IMG/VR virus record: IMGVR_UViG_3300042549_005931
Location: 124,001 to 188,000 of that record
Length of the DNA stretch: 64,000 bases
Strand: one strand, 5' to 3'
Origin: a virus
Both the position numbers and the translations under genes were made by a program. Each line of letters begins with the position of its first letter. The first letter of the stretch is position 1. This document shows positions 30,862-59,425 of this stretch, one piece after another. A model generated the notes under the pieces. The model was given only the letters and a program-made list of their open reading frames with translations, was not told the DNA's origin and searched no databases.

Positions 30862-30877
30862 GTTAGTCTTGATGTTA

Positions 30878-30909
30878 CAAATATAAATACAAAATATTAA
30901 TTTATCAAA
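30878..30909 (-). promoter_or_regulatory. Host-type promoter of the DNA polymerase gene
   Basis: The -7 box TATATTTG (30885-30878) and the -33 box TTTG (30909-30906) are separated by exactly 20 bases, matching the Bacteroidota consensus TTTG-N19-21-TAnnTTTG. A TATTTATA octamer (30889-30882) overlaps the -7 box, giving TATTTATATTTGTAA, a 15-mer also found before bS21. Confidence 0.7.
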
Positions 30910-49838: not shown

Positions 49839-50003
49839 ATGAAAGTCACAAAGAATGGTAATGGGTATATTTTTGAGGTGTCACTTAATGAAAAAGAAAA
49901 CCTTTATAAAATCGGGCAACTTATACTAAAAAAACAATGTAAATTCTTTTACTTCGCTACTGACAAATTATATTACATTTCAGATGTTAAATTAGAATCA
50001 TAA
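49839..50003 (+). CDS. Small protein with leaderless-type start
   Basis: A 54-aa ORF (MKVTKNGNGYIFEVSLNEKE, later QCKFFYFATDKLYYI, ending SDVKLES). It shows two beta-hairpin-like halves and no membrane segment. It is too short for standard ORF cut-offs but has a well-placed host-type promoter and ends 31 bases inside the 3' end of the convergent dCMP deaminase gene. It is probably an early/middle accessory protein; no family is recognised. Confidence 0.65.
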   Translation: MKVTKNGNGYIFEVSLNEKENLYKIGQLILKKQCKFFYFATDKLYYISDVKLES

Positions 50004-50437
50004 TAAATAACATCGACACCACACTCACCTAACATCTGTTTAGACATTTCCTGAGATTCTAACCATTTATCTTTATTTTTAGTTGTACATTCCGATTTAC
50101 AATATACAGTAGTAATTCCCGAATTAATGATTGCACGAGCACAATCTGCACAAGGTAATCCCGATGTTAAGTATATTGCAGAACCTTTAAGTGAGACACC
50201 TATACGAGCAGCGTTGTAGACTGCATTCCTTTCCGCGTGTTCAATCCAAAAGTATTTCTGTGGTCTTTCCTGACGTTCAGGTAAATCGTCTCTTAAACCC
50301 CGAGGAAATGAGTTATAACCCGTAGATAAAATTTCTTTATCCTTACCAACAATAACTGCACCTATTTGTGTTGATTCGTCTTTTGATTTGAACTTAACTT
50401 GTTCAGCAATATTTAAAAAATAATTTTTCCAATTCAT
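49973..50437 (-). CDS. cd: dCMP deaminase
   Basis: A 154-aa zinc-dependent deaminase (dCMP to dUMP) that feeds thymidylate synthesis. The zinc motif HAE (H67-E69) and PCADC (C96, C99) are present, along with GYNSFPRG and the opening MNWKNYFLNIAEQVKFKS. I chose ATG at 50437 rather than one 14 codons earlier, because the domain starts here and the host-type box TATATTTG ends 4 bases before it, so the mRNA may be leaderless. It is shorter than T4 gp cd (193 aa). It works with the dUTPase at 38105. Confidence 0.93.
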   Translation of the reverse strand: MNWKNYFLNIAEQVKFKSKDESTQIGAVIVGKDKEILSTGYNSFPRGLRDDLPERQERPQKYFWIEHAERNAVYNAARIGVSLKGSAIYLTSGLPCADCARAIINSGITTVYCKSECTTKNKDKWLESQEMSKQMLGECGVDVIYYDSNLTSEM

Positions 50438-50516: not shown

Positions 50517-52241
50517 TTAACGTAAAGTATCGATAGAGAATGTTTGTAAACCACTTACATTAATTACACCAAAGTAACGGTTGTTAACCATTTTCTTCGC
50601 ATAACGAGTCATGATACCTTTGATAGGTGTGAAGTTAAATGGATTGTACATTGTTGGAGTTAATTGTAATGGTACGTATGGTGCGTAGATGTAACCTGCA
50701 TCCAATAATGACTTACCTTTGTGTCCAATCAAGATTTTTCCTGCTGGGAAGTAAGGGTCACGGAATACTTGGTAACGACCTGCTAATGTACCAACTTTTT
50801 CAATACCCATGTTGTATGAGTCTTGCTCAGGACCTGCGTTTGAAACGTGGAAGTACTCTAAATCGTCAAATACTGCAGAAACTTCTGAAGAAATAACAAT
50901 CCAGTTAGCACCACCTCTCAAAGTAGTCTTGTGGATTTGTGCTGAAATTTGGTTAACTTTAGTAATTAAAGTTTGGTTCCAGTCTTTTTGAGTGTAACCT
51001 TGTAAAGTTGCACCACCGTTTCCACCATATTTCCACTCATTGTAATCCCACTTAGCTGTCCAAGCCGCACCTTTACGTAAATCACGTAAGATTTCACGGT
51101 CAACCTCAGCAGCGATTTGCTCAGATAACAATGCAGTTAATTCTGCTTCAGCATCAATGTTGTGGAACGCTGAAACGTCTTGAGCTAACTCAGGAGACCA
51201 AGAAGCTCTTAATTTTCTTTCAGTTACAGAAACTGTTACAGAATCTAAATCGAAAGAAACCTCACCGATAGCATCTTCAAATTCTAAAGAAGCGTATTGA
51301 CGATAAGTTGCAACAAAGTCAGAACCAACTAAAGTTGAACCTGCAACTGTGTGGTTACTGAAACCTGCTGTAGATGAATAAGTTTGTAAATCAACGTTTA
51401 AGTAGATTACACCATTAGCATCACAAATGTCATTATATTGACCAGTAATACCTGCAGATTTTGTTCCGTATTCTACAATACCTTTACCGTATTTTTGAGT
51501 TACCACAGTAAATGGTAAAGCCGCACCCGATTGAACTTGTGCCGCTGAGATAGCCAAAGAAGCTAAGAATTCTTCAGTATCCATTTCGTTTCCGTTAGGA
51601 CCCGCTAATTTACCTGCACCACCACTAGTGAAACCTGATAACTTAACGATAACAGAACTTAAAGAAGTACCTGTAGTTCCTGTGTAAGCACTTTCAACAC
51701 CTGAAGCGAAAGTAACGATTGATGTTCCAGTTAAAGAAATTGTTGAATAATCACCTTTTGAGTAATCAAACAATCCTGAATCAGCAGCATCTGAAGTTTC
51801 ATAGAAACGGTCATAAAGATTAGTTCCTGTGTAACCAGTTGTTGCAGATGTTCCACCAGCACCACCAGGGATACCGTATGGAGAATAGTGTGCTCCTGCA
51901 TTTCTTTCCTGAATTTTAGGAATGAAATAGAATAATTTACCGATAGGTAAGTTCATAGCCTGAACTGAAACGATATCGTTCGCTAATAATTTAGAGAATA
52001 CACGACGGATGATAGGGAATACCACTGTCTCGAATGAACCTGAAGCGTCAGATACTGCTGCTTCGTTGATTAAGTAAGACGCTTGGTTTTCATATAATTG
52101 CGCGATGTTATCTCTTTGGTGACCGTTAAGACCTTCTAAAAAGCCTAAATCATCCCATTTTTTGATGGTATCTTCTTTGATAACACGAAGGTGCTTAAGA
52201 CCGATGTTACCAACCATACCTGATTCTAATAATGCTCCCAT
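50517..52241 (-). CDS. 23: Major capsid protein
   Basis: A 574-aa T4 gp23-type protein (T4: 521 aa, HK97 fold). The N-terminal propeptide region ends QASYLINEAAVSDASG. The (I/L)xE cleavage rule of T4 gp21 puts a probable cut after Glu60 (INE|AA), close to Glu65 in T4. Core signs are VFPIIRRVFSKLLANDIVSV with QAMNLPIGKLFYFIPKIQE, AEAELTALLSEQIAAEVDRE with ILRDLRKGAA and the C-terminal PKGIMTRYAKKM-like segment (actual IKGIMTRYAKKMVNNRYFGV). It is the last gene of the protease-scaffold-capsid set and has a strong terminator. No TATTTATA octamer is seen directly upstream. Confidence 0.96.
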   Translation of the reverse strand: MGALLESGMVGNIGLKHLRVIKEDTIKKWDDLGFLEGLNGHQRDNIAQLYENQASYLINEAAVSDASGSFETVVFPIIRRVFSKLLANDIVSVQAMNLPIGKLFYFIPKIQERNAGAHYSPYGIPGGAGGTSATTGYTGTNLYDRFYETSDAADSGLFDYSKGDYSTISLTGTSIVTFASGVESAYTGTTGTSLSSVIVKLSGFTSGGAGKLAGPNGNEMDTEEFLASLAISAAQVQSGAALPFTVVTQKYGKGIVEYGTKSAGITGQYNDICDANGVIYLNVDLQTYSSTAGFSNHTVAGSTLVGSDFVATYRQYASLEFEDAIGEVSFDLDSVTVSVTERKLRASWSPELAQDVSAFHNIDAEAELTALLSEQIAAEVDREILRDLRKGAAWTAKWDYNEWKYGGNGGATLQGYTQKDWNQTLITKVNQISAQIHKTTLRGGANWIVISSEVSAVFDDLEYFHVSNAGPEQDSYNMGIEKVGTLAGRYQVFRDPYFPAGKILIGHKGKSLLDAGYIYAPYVPLQLTPTMYNPFNFTPIKGIMTRYAKKMVNNRYFGVINVSGLQTFSIDTLR

Positions 52242-53537: not shown

Positions 53538-54221
53538 TTATTTAGATAAAAATTTGTCTAAACCACCCATTAATTTTTTCATTCTGTCATTAAGTTCAGG
53601 TTTCTCTTGTATAGACTCTTGATATTGGTCTCTATCTGCTGGGTCATTAAATACATATGCCCCCGGTGTAGATGGAGACGACACTAAGTCAAAACATACT
53701 AATTCAAAATCATCTTGAACAATATTTTGACCTCTTTCACTTTTTAATGAACCAACACCACGTGATGATATACCTAAAGTTGCACCATTCATGATTAACA
53801 TTGCCGCTTGGTCACCTTTAGTAGAAACAATACCCATCTTCTTCCAACCTGGAGAAGTGAATAACTTTATTTTACCCATTAATATTTTTCCATCCCAATA
53901 TGTTTCAAGAATTGAATGGGATACTCTATCTAAGTCGATAAGAGATGATGATGGGTGATTTAACTCATTAAGAGCACCACCTTTTTTAATAAGTGTTTGA
54001 TATTTTTCTACTTCTCTTTTAAGAAGCATTTCAGGATAGATTCTCCCGTTCTTATTTGGTGTATCGTATTTCTGTAAAACAGCATAAAGGATAAGGTCTT
54101 CTGAAAAGTCCATATCCCTCATCTCTGATATAATTTTTTTATTGTCGTCAGGGGACACATGACCCGCGTCATATTCAATAAGAATACCTTTCCCTGTTTC
54201 GTTCGGACCTAAAATCTTCAT
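53538..54221 (-). CDS. 21: Prohead core protease
   Basis: A 227-aa protease of the T4 gp21 family (T4: 212 aa), which cuts capsid and core proteins during head maturation. Conserved segments are KNGRIYPEMLL (residues 58-68), the catalytic His in ELNHPSSS (H89), the Ser region GATLGISSRGVGSL (about 146-159) and the acidic-partner region FELVCFDLVSSPSTPGA. Its neighbours, scaffold and capsid, are the expected substrates, together with the candidate leader-bearing proteins elsewhere. A TATTTATA octamer lies 13 bases before the ATG. Confidence 0.93.
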   Translation of the reverse strand: MKILGPNETGKGILIEYDAGHVSPDDNKKIISEMRDMDFSEDLILYAVLQKYDTPNKNGRIYPEMLLKREVEKYQTLIKKGGALNELNHPSSSLIDLDRVSHSILETYWDGKILMGKIKLFTSPGWKKMGIVSTKGDQAAMLIMNGATLGISSRGVGSLKSERGQNIVQDDFELVCFDLVSSPSTPGAYVFNDPADRDQYQESIQEKPELNDRMKKLMGGLDKFLSK

Positions 54222-54256: not shown

Positions 54257-54682
54257 TTATTTCTTTGTTTTGTGAAAATTGTATAAATTTTTGTTAGTTA
54301 AACTATCATCAATTATACCCGAAATTAATTTTTTGATTGTATTTTTTATATCTTTTGTTTTAATATCAAATTGATTTTCAACAAAAAGTGTAATCTCTAA
54401 GTTCATAAAGGACCTTTTTTCAAGTTTTATTCCTTTTGTTCTTATATCCAAATCAACAATACATTGTTGTTTAAATAATGGATTTCTTAATTCGTAAATT
54501 GAATCTTTTATTTTACGTCTTGTTTTAAAAATTGATGAGTCGAAATCATCAGTTTCGTTTTCGGGTTGAACCCACGAATTTAATTTTAAGTAAACGGTTT
54601 TTAAATTTTTGTAATCAACGGTACCATAACCAATTTTTACGTTATTGTATTCCCCTAAAGGGATATACTTTCCTATTTTCAT
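54257..54682 (-). CDS. Hypothetical protein upstream of the protease
   Basis: A 141-aa protein with strands (YNNVKIGYGTVDYKNLKTVY, LEKRSFMNLEITLFVENQF) and a helical C-terminus rich in Lys/Asn (DIKNTIKKLISGIID). It lies between bS21 and the head-maturation genes on minus. T4 has only core proteins gp67 and gp68 in this position, but no similarity is visible. Its function is unknown. Confidence 0.6.
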   Translation of the reverse strand: MKIGKYIPLGEYNNVKIGYGTVDYKNLKTVYLKLNSWVQPENETDDFDSSIFKTRRKIKDSIYELRNPLFKQQCIVDLDIRTKGIKLEKRSFMNLEITLFVENQFDIKTKDIKNTIKKLISGIIDDSLTNKNLYNFHKTKK

Positions 54683-54759
54683 TAACTTTTCATATTATTA
54701 TATTTTTATGGTGTATTCAAAATATAAGTAAAAAAAATTTAAATACAAAAAAATATATT

Positions 54760-54767
54760 TATATTTG
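54760..54767 (+). promoter_or_regulatory. Host-type -7 box of the bS21 gene
   Basis: Plus-strand TATATTTG, 20 bases before the ATG. It overlaps a TATTTATA octamer (54756-54763), giving the 15-mer TATTTATATTTGTAA shared with the polymerase promoter. No clear -33 TTG is present, so strength is uncertain. Confidence 0.55.
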
Positions 54768-54787
54768 TAATATAAACTAATTTCCAT

Positions 54788-54976
54788 ATGTTAATTGTTG
54801 ATTTAAGTAAAGAAAAAAGTATTGAGAGTGCTTTGAGAACTTTTAAGGGTAAAGTTTTAAAAACTAAGCTTGTTCAAAAATTAAGAGAAAGACAAGAGTT
54901 CACAAAACCCTCAGTTACTAAGAGAAAACAGAAATTGAAAGCTGTTTATCTACAGAAAAAAAATGGTCTTGATTAA
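54788..54976 (+). CDS. rpsU: Ribosomal protein bS21 homologue
   Basis: A 62-aa protein. IESALRTFKGKVLKTKLVQK is the first bS21 helix with conserved Leu/Phe/Lys, LRERQEFTKPSVTKRKQKLK covers the RRRExxxKPxxxR signature, and the C-terminus is basic. KPSVTKR is the form I know from Bacteroidota bS21. In E. coli the protein lies next to the anti-Shine-Dalgarno end of 16S rRNA; in Flavobacterium bS21 with bS6 and bS18 hides that end. A phage copy could replace host bS21 on ribosomes. There is no Shine-Dalgarno upstream, unlike the self-regulated rpsU of Flavobacterium. It is alone on plus and ends in a terminator shared with the convergent gene. Confidence 0.9.
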   Translation: MLIVDLSKEKSIESALRTFKGKVLKTKLVQKLRERQEFTKPSVTKRKQKLKAVYLQKKNGLD

Positions 54977-54990
54977 ACAAGACCATTTTT
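54959..54990. terminator. Bidirectional terminator holding both convergent stop codons
   Basis: AAAATGGTCTTG and CAAGACCATTTTTT flank the six-base loop ATTAAA; the outer bases continue as A/T pairing and give a U-tract in both directions. The loop carries the TAA of bS21 (54974-54976) and the TAA of the convergent core protein (54975-54973). Both proteins therefore end in KNGL plus one residue. Confidence 0.85.
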
Positions 54991-55710
54991 TAATTGTACC
55001 AATCTGTAATAATTAAATTTCGATGGTTTCATTTCATTAACCTCGTCTTTTACTTTGGTTAATTTACCGGTTAAATCATTATCTTTAGACTCACTCAGGA
55101 TATTACCTACTTGACCTAAAATAGATTCTTTTAAATCACTTATTTTAACTTCAAGGTCTTCGTCCGTTAAAGATAAAATACCCTGTAATTCTTTTTTCTG
55201 TGATTCATTTAATGAATTATTATATAATACATTAAAATTGTTTGCTAATACTGCATATAGAAGATTTTCATTTTCTACTAATTGTGTTTCTTCTTTTTTA
55301 ACGATTTCTTTTTTTGTTGTTAAATGTTCTACTAATTTTTTCTTCGCAATAATTTTTTTGTCAACATTACTTAAATTTTCTTCTTGAACTAATAAGTCTA
55401 AGTTTGAATATAATTCGTTTTCGTTAATTTCTACGTTTTTTAACTTTGTATTTAAATTTTTTGTGAAACTTGCGATTTTATCTGACTTGTCTTTTAAGAC
55501 CGATTGAATTTCTTCTACATACAGTTTAGCTATTTCTTTATCATCGAAGTATTTGTTTTCGATTTCTTCATAAAACAAATACATTTCTTTGAAATCTTTG
55601 TTTTCTTTAATTGTATTTAAGATATCCTTAACTTCACCTTTATTCTTGTTTGAATAAGATTCAGTTAGTTTCTTTAATATCTTTGTTTTTAATATTCCAA
55701 ATTTGTTCAT
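54973..55710 (-). CDS. Prohead core-like protein
   Basis: A 245-aa, strongly helical Lys/Glu-rich protein. The N-terminus FGILKTKILKKLTESYSNKN is a short helix like the leaders of other candidate head proteins. Coiled-coil segments follow (FTKNLNTKLKNVEINENELY, KIIAKKKLVEHLTTKKEIVK). It lies between portal and protease genes, where T4 has core genes 67 and 68, and starts 2 bases after the portal stop. A prohead core function is inferred from location and composition. The last codons form one arm of a terminator shared with bS21. Confidence 0.65.
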   Translation of the reverse strand: MNKFGILKTKILKKLTESYSNKNKGEVKDILNTIKENKDFKEMYLFYEEIENKYFDDKEIAKLYVEEIQSVLKDKSDKIASFTKNLNTKLKNVEINENELYSNLDLLVQEENLSNVDKKIIAKKKLVEHLTTKKEIVKKEETQLVENENLLYAVLANNFNVLYNNSLNESQKKELQGILSLTDEDLEVKISDLKESILGQVGNILSESKDNDLTGKLTKVKDEVNEMKPSKFNYYRLVQLKNGLV

Positions 55711-55712
55711 TT

Positions 55713-57527
55713 TTAGTCGTTTAATATGTCTGTTATTTTAGTTTCTATTTCATAAATATTCTGTTGTGCTTTATTCATATCAAATAAGATATTAAAATCT
55801 TCTTTTTCCTCACCTAACATACCTAATATTTTTGATTTTCTTGAAGTAGATTCACTTAATGGTTCCGCAGCAGGTGCTTCGGCAGGTGCTCCACCACCCA
55901 TATCCATTCCACCACCGGCAGCAGCTTCACCACCACCTGCGGCAGCTTCAGCCTTTTCTCTTTCTTCCTCAGGGATACCATACTTAGCATCCACATTGTC
56001 GAAGATACCTGAACGTTTAATGATTAACTGACTCGTATTCATTAATTCGAAACCAACCGCTCTTTCAAGACGTTGTTGTTGTAAATCAAGTAATACTTCA
56101 GCATCACTCATACCAAGAATATTTTTCTTAGCCCATGTATGAGACACCGGTAAAATACCCATTTGAGATTGGTCAGATGTTGCATCCTTATAAAGAGTAA
56201 CCTTTTCTTTCCATTGTTCAATACGTAATAAATCAGATTGTGCTGATGGATTAGTTAAACCTAACGTAAAGTTATTTAATTCATCCTCTAAACCTAATAG
56301 ATACAAGTGAACTAATGCTATTTTATTTAACTCTTGAATAACTGATTTTTGAATTCTGTTAATTGTACGAGCAAAACGAATATCCATTAATGCTAAACTC
56401 TTACCTTCACCAACAACCTCTTCAAAACCTAAGAAAGCTTTTGGTATACGTAAAGCTGCAAGTAGTTTCTTTTGAATATATTCAATATCGGCAATTTCAC
56501 CTAAGTTTGTTGCTCCGGGTAATGTATCGATTGGACTTGGAGCTGCAGGGTCACGTACAGGGATAAAATAATCTTGGTCTACTGACATTTGATTATATCT
56601 CATATCTACCTGACCATTACGTGGGTCGGATATTTGGTCTCTTTTGAATTTACTTGCCACACGTTGTACATAAGCTTCAATATCTTTATCATCCATGTTA
56701 CCCACAAATATTTTAAAGATACGTCTTTCAGGTGCTCTTGATGTTCTATAAATTAACATCGCATCTTCAGCAAGAAGTAATTGTTTCCAAATACGTCTAA
56801 TCTTATCTAACATAGAAGTACCATAAGGTAATTTTCTATCGTCACCTAAAATTCTAAAGTGTGCAACTTCCCAAGCTTGGAATTCCATATCTTTATTCTT
56901 CCAATGGAATCTCAATTCACGTGACGGCATTTTAACATCTCTAGCTTGTCCCGCAGTTTTACTTGATGCGCCTTCCAATCTTTCAATTTCAATGTTTGGT
57001 AATTGTTGACACCCAATGATACCCTTTTCAGGGTCAATTTTTAAGTATACAAAGTTATCCCCATACTTACATAGACCTCTTGTCCACATTTGTAAGTTGG
57101 TGTTAACATCTAATACGTTTTTGAATAAGTCATCAAGGATATTCTTTACTCTTGTTGATTCAGAAAATATTGTTAATATTTCACCCTTCTCAGACATTGT
57201 GGTTGATTCTTCAGCATAGATATCTAAAGCTGCGGAAATCTCCGGAGTAAATTCCATAGATTCATAATCATAATATGCAGCCAATCTATTTGGTTCGTAA
57301 TAAACCGATTGGTTATATAATGATTGGTCAAGTTTAGCCCATTTATCAGCAATGTACTGACTTTGTTGAGCTTGTAATAACGCCTTTTCGTATTCTTCTC
57401 TACTATCGGTCTTTAATAATTCGTCTTTTGAGAAACTAAATGATGGTACTTGGTCGGGTCTTGTTTTCCCCGGATATCCAAACATCTTGGTCAATTTCTG
57501 AAAAACTGTAAAATTCTGTTCTGCCAT
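55713..57527 (-). CDS. 20: Portal protein
   Basis: A 604-aa portal of the T4 gp20 type (T4: 524 aa), forming the dodecameric ring through which DNA enters and leaves. Typical segments are MEFTPEISAALDIYAEESTT, TRGLCKYGDNFVYLKIDPEK, WEVAHFRILGDDRKLPYGTS, SRAPERRIFKIFVGNMDDKD and AALRIPKAFLGFEEVVGEGK. The C-terminal 60 residues include an Ala/Gly/Pro-rich stretch (EAAAGGGEAAAGGGMDMGGG). It directly follows the terminase gene. A TATTTATA octamer lies 3 bases before its ATG. Confidence 0.94.
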   Translation of the reverse strand: MAEQNFTVFQKLTKMFGYPGKTRPDQVPSFSFSKDELLKTDSREEYEKALLQAQQSQYIADKWAKLDQSLYNQSVYYEPNRLAAYYDYESMEFTPEISAALDIYAEESTTMSEKGEILTIFSESTRVKNILDDLFKNVLDVNTNLQMWTRGLCKYGDNFVYLKIDPEKGIIGCQQLPNIEIERLEGASSKTAGQARDVKMPSRELRFHWKNKDMEFQAWEVAHFRILGDDRKLPYGTSMLDKIRRIWKQLLLAEDAMLIYRTSRAPERRIFKIFVGNMDDKDIEAYVQRVASKFKRDQISDPRNGQVDMRYNQMSVDQDYFIPVRDPAAPSPIDTLPGATNLGEIADIEYIQKKLLAALRIPKAFLGFEEVVGEGKSLALMDIRFARTINRIQKSVIQELNKIALVHLYLLGLEDELNNFTLGLTNPSAQSDLLRIEQWKEKVTLYKDATSDQSQMGILPVSHTWAKKNILGMSDAEVLLDLQQQRLERAVGFELMNTSQLIIKRSGIFDNVDAKYGIPEEEREKAEAAAGGGEAAAGGGMDMGGGAPAEAPAAEPLSESTSRKSKILGMLGEEKEDFNILFDMNKAQQNIYEIETKITDILND

Positions 57528-57580: not shown

Positions 57581-59365
57581 TTATTTTTTTCTTCCATTAA
57601 ACAACCATGAGTATTCCATATATGCTTCTCTACCAACTTGTTGATTAGTATTACCCCCATACATTGAATTGCTACTATCCATACCCATAGAACCTATTTG
57701 GTCAAATGACCCACCATATGAATAAAAAGATTTTTGTGGCTCATACGTTCTTTCAGACATTGTCCATGATTCAATCATTGCTCTATTAACTGATTCGGTT
57801 TTTTGTAATTGATTGAAACATAAATCACCAGCATATAATGCCATTGACATACTCATAATAGCATCATCGTGAGAACCTTTCATGTGGTCAGGTCTTCCGT
57901 TCATATAAACAAACGTATTAAGTTCATTTAATAGTCTACTTGACCTAACTTGAAAACCTTTTCTTAATTGTTCTTCAAATGCCGCAACAATCTGCGTTCT
58001 TTTATTGTTAAAGTTAAGACCGGGTATTTTTTCCATGGCCTTAGCGTTATATTCCCAAATGTTTTGAGTATTAACACCATCAATATAAATATTTTTATAA
58101 TTTAACTCTTGTAATTTTCTTGATGTTGCAACACCCATACCACCGGTGATATCAATAACGATAAAAGCGTTACCATATATCACACCCCACTTATACGCAA
58201 TTTGTGCCAAATCGTCCGGTGGTATCTTACCAATATATTCAAGTACTTGTTCTCTATCATCAAAATCGACAATACTAATTGCTGAAAAGTCTTCACTATC
58301 ACCTCTACTAACATCGACACCCATAATATAACGGTGACCTTCAATTGGTTCTTTCCACTGCCATAATGTAGCTTGCATGTATTTCTCAATAGGAACACGA
58401 ATCATGTTCTTAGAAATATTCTCTTGAACAAAACCCGGTATAACACCATCACCCGAACCCAAGAAGTCACACTCTAATTCTTGTGAAATTTTACGTCTAT
58501 CGTATTTGAACTTTTTAGACATAGACTCAAACCAAGATGAATATGGTTTATAACCCTGTTCTTCCAATTCTTTATAATTGGACATATCAAACTCATAAAT
58601 AACAACTTCGTTATCATCATATTGTTCTCTGTTTAACATGTAATGACATATATCCTGACATTTAACCCATCGTAAGTCTTTGGTATAACGAGGGTCTTTA
58701 AACCACCTTAAATCTGTTATGTGGAAATCATTAATTCCACGAATAGCTTGGTCGTATACACCATAATAAATTGGGTCGTAACCATTTGGAGTTGAGATTA
58801 GAATAATCTTACCACCCGTAGATAGGGAGGCCATAGATGCAGCCCAAAAATCTTCTCCTGCTTCAATATATGCAGCCTCGTCAAATACAAGTACGGTAGG
58901 TGTAAAACCACGAAGTGCATCCGCAGATGTTGCAACAGCTTTAACTTCGGAACCGTTATTTAATCTAAATCTACTCTCAGAGTTTTTATCGGGTGAAAAT
59001 CCAACATTAATCCATTCGGGCCATTGGTCTAAGAAGTTTCTAATCTTATTAGCCATTTCCACGGCGGTATCTTTCTTATTGGCAATAATCAAAACTCTTT
59101 CAGGATTTTCTGGTTTGGCAAATTGTAATTTCTTTGATAACCAAGCGGCTGTTACGGTTGTTACACCGGCCTGACGATATTTCTTTGTGATGTTTTCGTT
59201 ATAATCTTCGTAATCTTGAATTAATTGTAATTGGTCAGGAAATAGGTTCATTGGAACGAATTTCTTTTGCGTGTTATCGTATGTTTGTAGATACGTTCTT
59301 AACGCATATGGTGTATCTTTAATGATACGGGCATATTCTTTTAGTTGTTCTAATTTACTATTCAT
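57581..59365 (-). CDS. 17: Terminase large subunit
   Basis: A 594-aa ATPase-nuclease that packages DNA (T4 gp17: 610 aa). The start is ATG at 59365; a frame five codons longer would need TTG. The ATPase P-loop is the divergent type KYRQAGVTTVTAAW, with no Lys at the usual Walker A place; Walker B is VLVFDEAAYIEAG, and the coupling motif is ILISTPNGYD. The C-terminal nuclease has IMGVDVSRGDSEDFSAISIV and IVIDITGGMGVATSRKLQEL, with the metal Asp residues, and HDDAIMSMSMA. It is headed by a TATTTATA octamer placed directly after a terminator and followed by the portal gene. Confidence 0.95.
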   Translation of the reverse strand: MNSKLEQLKEYARIIKDTPYALRTYLQTYDNTQKKFVPMNLFPDQLQLIQDYEDYNENITKKYRQAGVTTVTAAWLSKKLQFAKPENPERVLIIANKKDTAVEMANKIRNFLDQWPEWINVGFSPDKNSESRFRLNNGSEVKAVATSADALRGFTPTVLVFDEAAYIEAGEDFWAASMASLSTGGKIILISTPNGYDPIYYGVYDQAIRGINDFHITDLRWFKDPRYTKDLRWVKCQDICHYMLNREQYDDNEVVIYEFDMSNYKELEEQGYKPYSSWFESMSKKFKYDRRKISQELECDFLGSGDGVIPGFVQENISKNMIRVPIEKYMQATLWQWKEPIEGHRYIMGVDVSRGDSEDFSAISIVDFDDREQVLEYIGKIPPDDLAQIAYKWGVIYGNAFIVIDITGGMGVATSRKLQELNYKNIYIDGVNTQNIWEYNAKAMEKIPGLNFNNKRTQIVAAFEEQLRKGFQVRSSRLLNELNTFVYMNGRPDHMKGSHDDAIMSMSMALYAGDLCFNQLQKTESVNRAMIESWTMSERTYEPQKSFYSYGGSFDQIGSMGMDSSNSMYGGNTNQQVGREAYMEYSWLFNGRKK

Positions 59366-59378: not shown

Positions 59379-59405
59379 AAAAAAAGGAGGTTAAACGCCT
59401 CCTTT
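59379..59405 (-). terminator. Terminator after the 512-aa head gene
   Basis: Minus-strand AAAGGAGG-CGTTTAA-CCTCCTTT plus four T: an 8-bp perfect stem with U-tract, 20 bases after the stop. The AGGAGG on plus is part of this stem, not a ribosome binding site. Confidence 0.9.
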
Positions 59406-59425
59406 ATTGTTTGTAGTCATAATGA

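Follow-up and report, generated by a model that had tools for sequence, protein, structure and literature searches.

The bS21 gene of this phage raises the question whether a virus that supplies its own copy of a ribosomal protein bypasses the feedback loop that controls the host copy or makes use of it. Flavobacterium is one of the clearest cases of a specialised bacterial ribosome, as its subunits lacking bS21 selectively translate rpsU, and phages supplying their own bS21 could control this switch. In F. johnsoniae, 30S subunits without bS21 have an exposed anti-Shine-Dalgarno (anti-SD), and on them rpsU is translated faster and mRNAs without a Shine-Dalgarno (SD) are translated more slowly; this SD-based autoregulation of rpsU was described in a study which also mentions phage copies (McNutt et al. 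2023, PMC9976891). It has already been proposed that a phage bS21 replaces the host protein and favours phage mRNAs (PMC6375957, PMC9723584, PMC9976891). No paper on the SDs of phage bS21 genes was found in a literature search covering few subscription journals.

The window analysed here comprises 64,000 nucleotides (positions 124,001 to 188,000) of the IMG/VR record IMGVR_UViG_3300042549_005931, and a single bS21 copy was found in the whole record of 269,133 bases. The open reading frame occupies positions 54788-54976 on the plus strand and encodes a full-length protein of 62 amino acids, MLIVDLSKEKSIESALRTFKGKVLKTKLVQKLRERQEFTKPSVTKRKQKLKAVYLQKKNGLD, which contains the KPSVTKR motif that the initial annotation had read from it. 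The protein matches the Ribosomal_S21 profile (PF01165) with 45.2 bits against a curated cut-off of 27 (E 7.7e-12, profile positions 2-52 of 55), and its best matches in the PDB are bS21 chains, including that of F. johnsoniae (7JIL). By this match and the retained Tyr54, the gene is identified as an authentic Bacteroidota-type bS21 carried by a phage, as had been supposed. On alignment, tyrosine, the residue that contacts the anti-SD, was observed at position 54 in 88/93 phage and 67/69 host proteins, and relative to hosts K40, S42, R46, K51 and Tyr54 are retained in the phage proteins. Phage and host proteins differ at positions 21 (R to various), 23 (F to V), 24, 27 (G to K, in 92/93) and 28 (T to Q), and the window protein carries this phage-specific N-terminal helix with Val23, Lys27 and others. 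An aromatic residue at position 54 and a divergent N-terminal helix, the latter near the mRNA path in 7JIL, are also features of the phages described by Chen et al. (PMC9723584).

As judged by a dN/dS of 0.03-0.13 among related phage copies, the phage bS21 is under strong purifying selection. A tree of the kind suggested in the initial annotation placed 92 phage bS21 proteins in one clade (support 98/90) apart from the sampled hosts; it is built on few columns and is little resolved inside the phage clade, where a single origin of the SD-bearing type described below is compatible with it. The pointer to a Bacteroidetes host of the window phage is protein similarity only. Neither bS18 nor bS6 was found in the phage record; hence, the idea of a complete phage-encoded anti-SD pocket was dropped, and host proteins must complete the pocket.

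The gene lies on the strand opposite to a set of T4-like head genes, between portal and protease genes as first annotated. The order on the minus strand is terminase large subunit (57581..59365), gp20-like portal protein (55713..57527), a helical hypothetical protein of 245 amino acids (54973..55710), then, beyond bS21 on the plus strand, a hypothetical protein of 141 amino acids (54257..54682), prohead protease (Peptidase_S77, 53538..54221), a 392-aa protein and the gp23-like major capsid protein (50517..52241). The 245-aa gene is thus the convergent and the 141-aa gene the divergent neighbour of bS21. By synteny with T4, these two genes stand where gp67 and gp68 of the prohead core lie, a correspondence of place and not of sequence. 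Sequence searches of solved structures with both proteins gave nothing credible. The complete gene order was recovered in 107/253 viral loci, and most of the rest have it in part, chiefly where the contig or locus breaks off; in 29 viral loci none of these head-region genes was near bS21. Another phage type (L066, L251-L271) has a bS21 with neither the head-gene context nor the promoter-like box discussed below.

Among loci recruited through the 141-aa gene, bS21 adjoins that gene in 76/80, and the other four are truncated. AlphaFold2 modelled the 141-aa protein with confidence (pLDDT 89), and a fold comparison with the PDB gave no match with an E value of 0.001 or below. Its alpha/beta topology had suggested a bS6-like protein, an idea that was abandoned when no bS6 appeared among the 50 best fold matches. 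The model agrees well with one protein only, an uncharacterised one from Myoviridae sp. ctPuP5 (TM 0.84/0.81), and no relatives of the window protein were found in the annotated phage collection.

A bS21 gene of opposite strand among TerL, portal, protease and major capsid genes, flanked by two hypothetical families, is the arrangement reported for bS21-encoding Bacteroidetes huge phages of clades a-e (major capsid protein, protease, hypothetical, bS21 on the opposite strand, hypothetical, portal, TerL), and ribosome substitution was proposed for these jumbo phages (Chen et al. 2022, PMC9723584). The phage type, the gene order, the aromatic residue at 54 and the idea of substitution are hence already published, and the window phage itself is of a kind described in 2022. 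The new part is the contrast of SD-less bS21 lineages with one lineage that bears an SD; the study of Chen et al. had no SD analysis (PMC9723584).

To score SD strength, the 22-25 nt directly preceding the start codon were paired with ACCUCCUUUCU and the energy of the RNA duplex was taken. The predicted bS21 leader in the window (54768..54787, plus strand) is A/T-rich and lacks an SD, its pairing energy being +0.9 kcal/mol, against -16.2 to -17.2 kcal/mol in Flavobacterium rpsU leaders, where the SD was very strong in 80/80. The absence of an SD noted in the initial annotation is thereby confirmed. The reported values are typically below -13 kcal/mol for rpsU and between -7 and -14 for rpsR (PMC9976891); the window gene lies outside the extended-SD range of SD-autoregulated rpsU. 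It resembles F. johnsoniae rpsU in encoding a homologous protein with Tyr54 and in being transcribed alone with a short leader, which for the phage is a prediction, and differs from it in that the host leader has an extended SD and the phage leader none (PMC9976891). In a sample of rpsU from diverse Bacteroidota, 58/90 leaders scored below -8 and 22/90 at or above -5, the latter count being an upper bound as a few start codons are misassigned.

The SD-less leader is the default among the genes of the window phage, 1/56 scoring below -8 within the 64-kb window of the 269-kb record. The missing SD is thus not in itself a special adaptation, and selection for escape from feedback is not required to account for it. 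Of 107 distinct phage pairs of bS21 protein and leader, 103 had no SD and four had one. These pairs derive from 254 viral bS21 loci, in which some contigs were counted more than once, and since the loci were chosen for their likeness to the phages of the window, the proportions hold for this phage group and not for phage bS21 in general. A mock window further upstream of phage bS21 genes gave no score below -8, and the loci recruited through the 141-aa neighbour, partly the same contigs, showed no strong SD (best -6.2). A GGAGG before the terminase gene was considered as an SD and dropped, being the stem of a terminator hairpin; this hairpin, with GGAGG/CCTCC arms, lies at window positions 59382-59407 on the minus strand, just before the terminase start. 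In one bacterial genome bS21 was observed to occur twice (L429, 9752-9946, and L430, 9794-9988), once behind a strong SD (-17.1) and once with none, beside a gene that reads like a sigma-70 factor.

The four SD-bearing pairs come from an exceptional phage lineage, in which AAAAGGAGG precedes bS21 in 12 contigs of two related types (L021-L027 and L277-L281). Their leaders have AAAAGGAGGAAAAAAA(A)T before the ATG and score -12.2 kcal/mol, against the values below -13 of McNutt et al. on an energy scale that is not identical (PMC9976891). By inspection the SD pairs over 8 bp, which is shorter than the extended SD of F. johnsoniae (PMC9976891). The leaders of the two types share CAAAAGGAGG and differ elsewhere. 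Seven such loci, including a pair that overlap on a single contig, contained 82 other gene starts, and the two matches below -8 among these were one ORF read twice, so that bS21 is essentially the only gene with an SD in this lineage. The bS21 gene of this minority has acquired or kept an SD and is probably wired into the host feedback loop. The contrast between SD-less lineages and a lineage with an SD on bS21 alone makes the question of bypass or use testable with existing F. johnsoniae reporters.

These results bear on the proposal of the initial annotation that the phage copy escapes the host feedback. The rpsU-type SD is indeed absent from the window gene; the generality of the proposal is reduced in that SD-less leaders are the phage default, one related lineage has a strong SD, so that escape is not universal in these phages, and some Bacteroidota rpsU, among which that of this phage's host may be, are SD-less too. 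The explanation that we regard as probable is that on the 30S subunit host bS21 gives way to the phage bS21, which keeps the anti-SD hidden and is made outside the host feedback while feeding its off-signal. With the C-terminal helix and Tyr54 retained, the 3' tail of 16S rRNA would be held in its pocket, and the phage-specific N-terminal helix would lie on the side where the mRNA passes. As the phage bS21 mRNA has no SD, it should be translatable by ribosomes already filled with bS21, and its output should hold up while more subunits are filled. At the same time the subunits without bS21, on which host rpsU mRNA depends, would be removed by filling, and rpsU would lose its preferred ribosomes. 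Where host rpsU has an extended SD, the host loop should then switch host bS21 off, and replacement would be favoured without any protease directed at host bS21, such as McNutt et al. consider possible (PMC9976891).

Counted for this explanation are the presence of bS21 as the only copy in the record, Tyr54 in 88 of the 93 phage proteins, the phage-specific changes at positions 21, 23, 24, 27 and 28, the purifying selection, the separate clade, the SD contrast and the conserved head-gene context. From the literature, bS21 of Pelagibacter phage HTVC008M was incorporated into E. coli 70S ribosomes (Nat Commun 2019, PMC6375957) and bS21-less F. johnsoniae ribosomes favour rpsU and disfavour mRNAs that have no SD (PMC9976891). 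HTVC008M is a comparable case as its bS21 is phage-encoded, although phage and host belong to other groups and the incorporation was shown in SD-using E. coli ribosomes (PMC6375957). Counted against it are the SD-less default, the diverse Bacteroidota rpsU without an SD (at most 22/90), the one phage lineage with an SD and the absence of bS18 and bS6 partners from the phage record. A wider reading, held to be less likely than not, is that phage bS21 mRNAs avoid the SD so as to be translated on filled ribosomes and that filling shuts off host rpsU through the host's autoregulation, the SD-bearing lineage having plugged into the same loop instead; if this is true, the two designs are alternative phage controls of ribosome composition during infection.

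Several other functions were weighed. A possible one, to which we give distinctly less credence than to replacement outside the feedback loop, is that the phage copy tops up a labile protein for new or damaged 30S subunits late in infection and is functionally equal to the host protein, the lack of an SD being a general leader habit. The rarity of SDs among window genes (the 1/56 below -8) and the conserved Tyr54 and C-terminal features agree with this, as does the location of bS21 among structural genes, with which it is transcribed in the related phages of Chen et al. (PMC9723584); however, simple supply leaves the phage-specific positions 21-28 (G27K in 92/93) and the SD on bS21 alone in one lineage unexplained. 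The same positions are the attraction of the hypothesis of Chen et al. that an altered N-terminal helix, near the mRNA path in 7JIL, makes ribosomes prefer phage over host mRNAs (PMC9723584). This appears unlikely, as most mRNAs have no SD in phage and Bacteroidota host alike, leaving no obvious leader feature to select, and the window leaders show A/T richness only. A preference for phage over host mRNAs, both mostly SD-less and A/T-rich, is supported by nothing found here.

Still less credible, and in our estimate very improbable, is a role outside the ribosome, with bS21 packaged or taking part in head assembly together with its 141-aa neighbour. The strict linkage to that gene (76/76 loci) and to head genes would fit such a role, and packaging was raised as a possibility by Chen et al. 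(PMC9723584), but the conserved rRNA-binding features and Tyr54 would be unneeded in a head and the other phage type has bS21 without head context (29 loci).

The gene is closed by a hairpin of 14 bp at 54958-54991. It overlaps the stop codon of bS21 as well as that of the 245-aa gene, and either strand folds well (z -5.5 on the plus and -4.7 on the minus strand). The terminator of the initial annotation is thus found again, and it can serve both convergent genes. The promoter claimed alongside it stands in part: a scan for E. coli-type sigma-70 promoters upstream of bS21 gave chance level, while a box of another kind is conserved. This box, TATTTATA / TATATTTG, was found in 89/107 phage bS21 leaders, TATTTATA itself in 48/107; in the window the two overlap, at 54756..54763 and 54760-54767 (plus strand). 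The Bacteroidota -7 element is TAnnTTTG, which TATATTTG fits, as does the longer TATATTTGTAATATA (54760..54774, plus strand) conserved in the window's sublineage. TAnnTTTG was present in 80/80 Flavobacterium rpsU leaders and TATTTATA in 0/80.

Within the window, TATTTATA occurs 19 times in total and stands at most 60 nt upstream of 15/56 genes, where 1.4 would be expected and no more than 6 arose in any of 1000 simulations. Among the genes that it precedes are those of the portal, the terminase, the protease and the 392-aa protein, but also that of a helicase; hence, its distribution marks TATTTATA as a promoter-like box of the phage and does not prove it a late box. A composite TATTTATATTTGTAAYAT is common to bS21 (54756-54773, plus strand) and the DNA polymerase gene (30872-30889, minus strand), and TATATTTGTAATAT stands directly before the start of the dCMP deaminase gene (49973-50437). 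The timing of bS21 is therefore not told by the sequence alone, which is compatible with early expression, late expression or both in the window's sublineage; Chen et al. inferred late expression from transcripts, whereas the composite box of this sublineage is shared with the DNA polymerase gene (PMC9723584 for the former). The enrichment of TATTTATA is in gene orientation. The late box of T4 is TATAAATA, and TATTTATA is its reverse complement.
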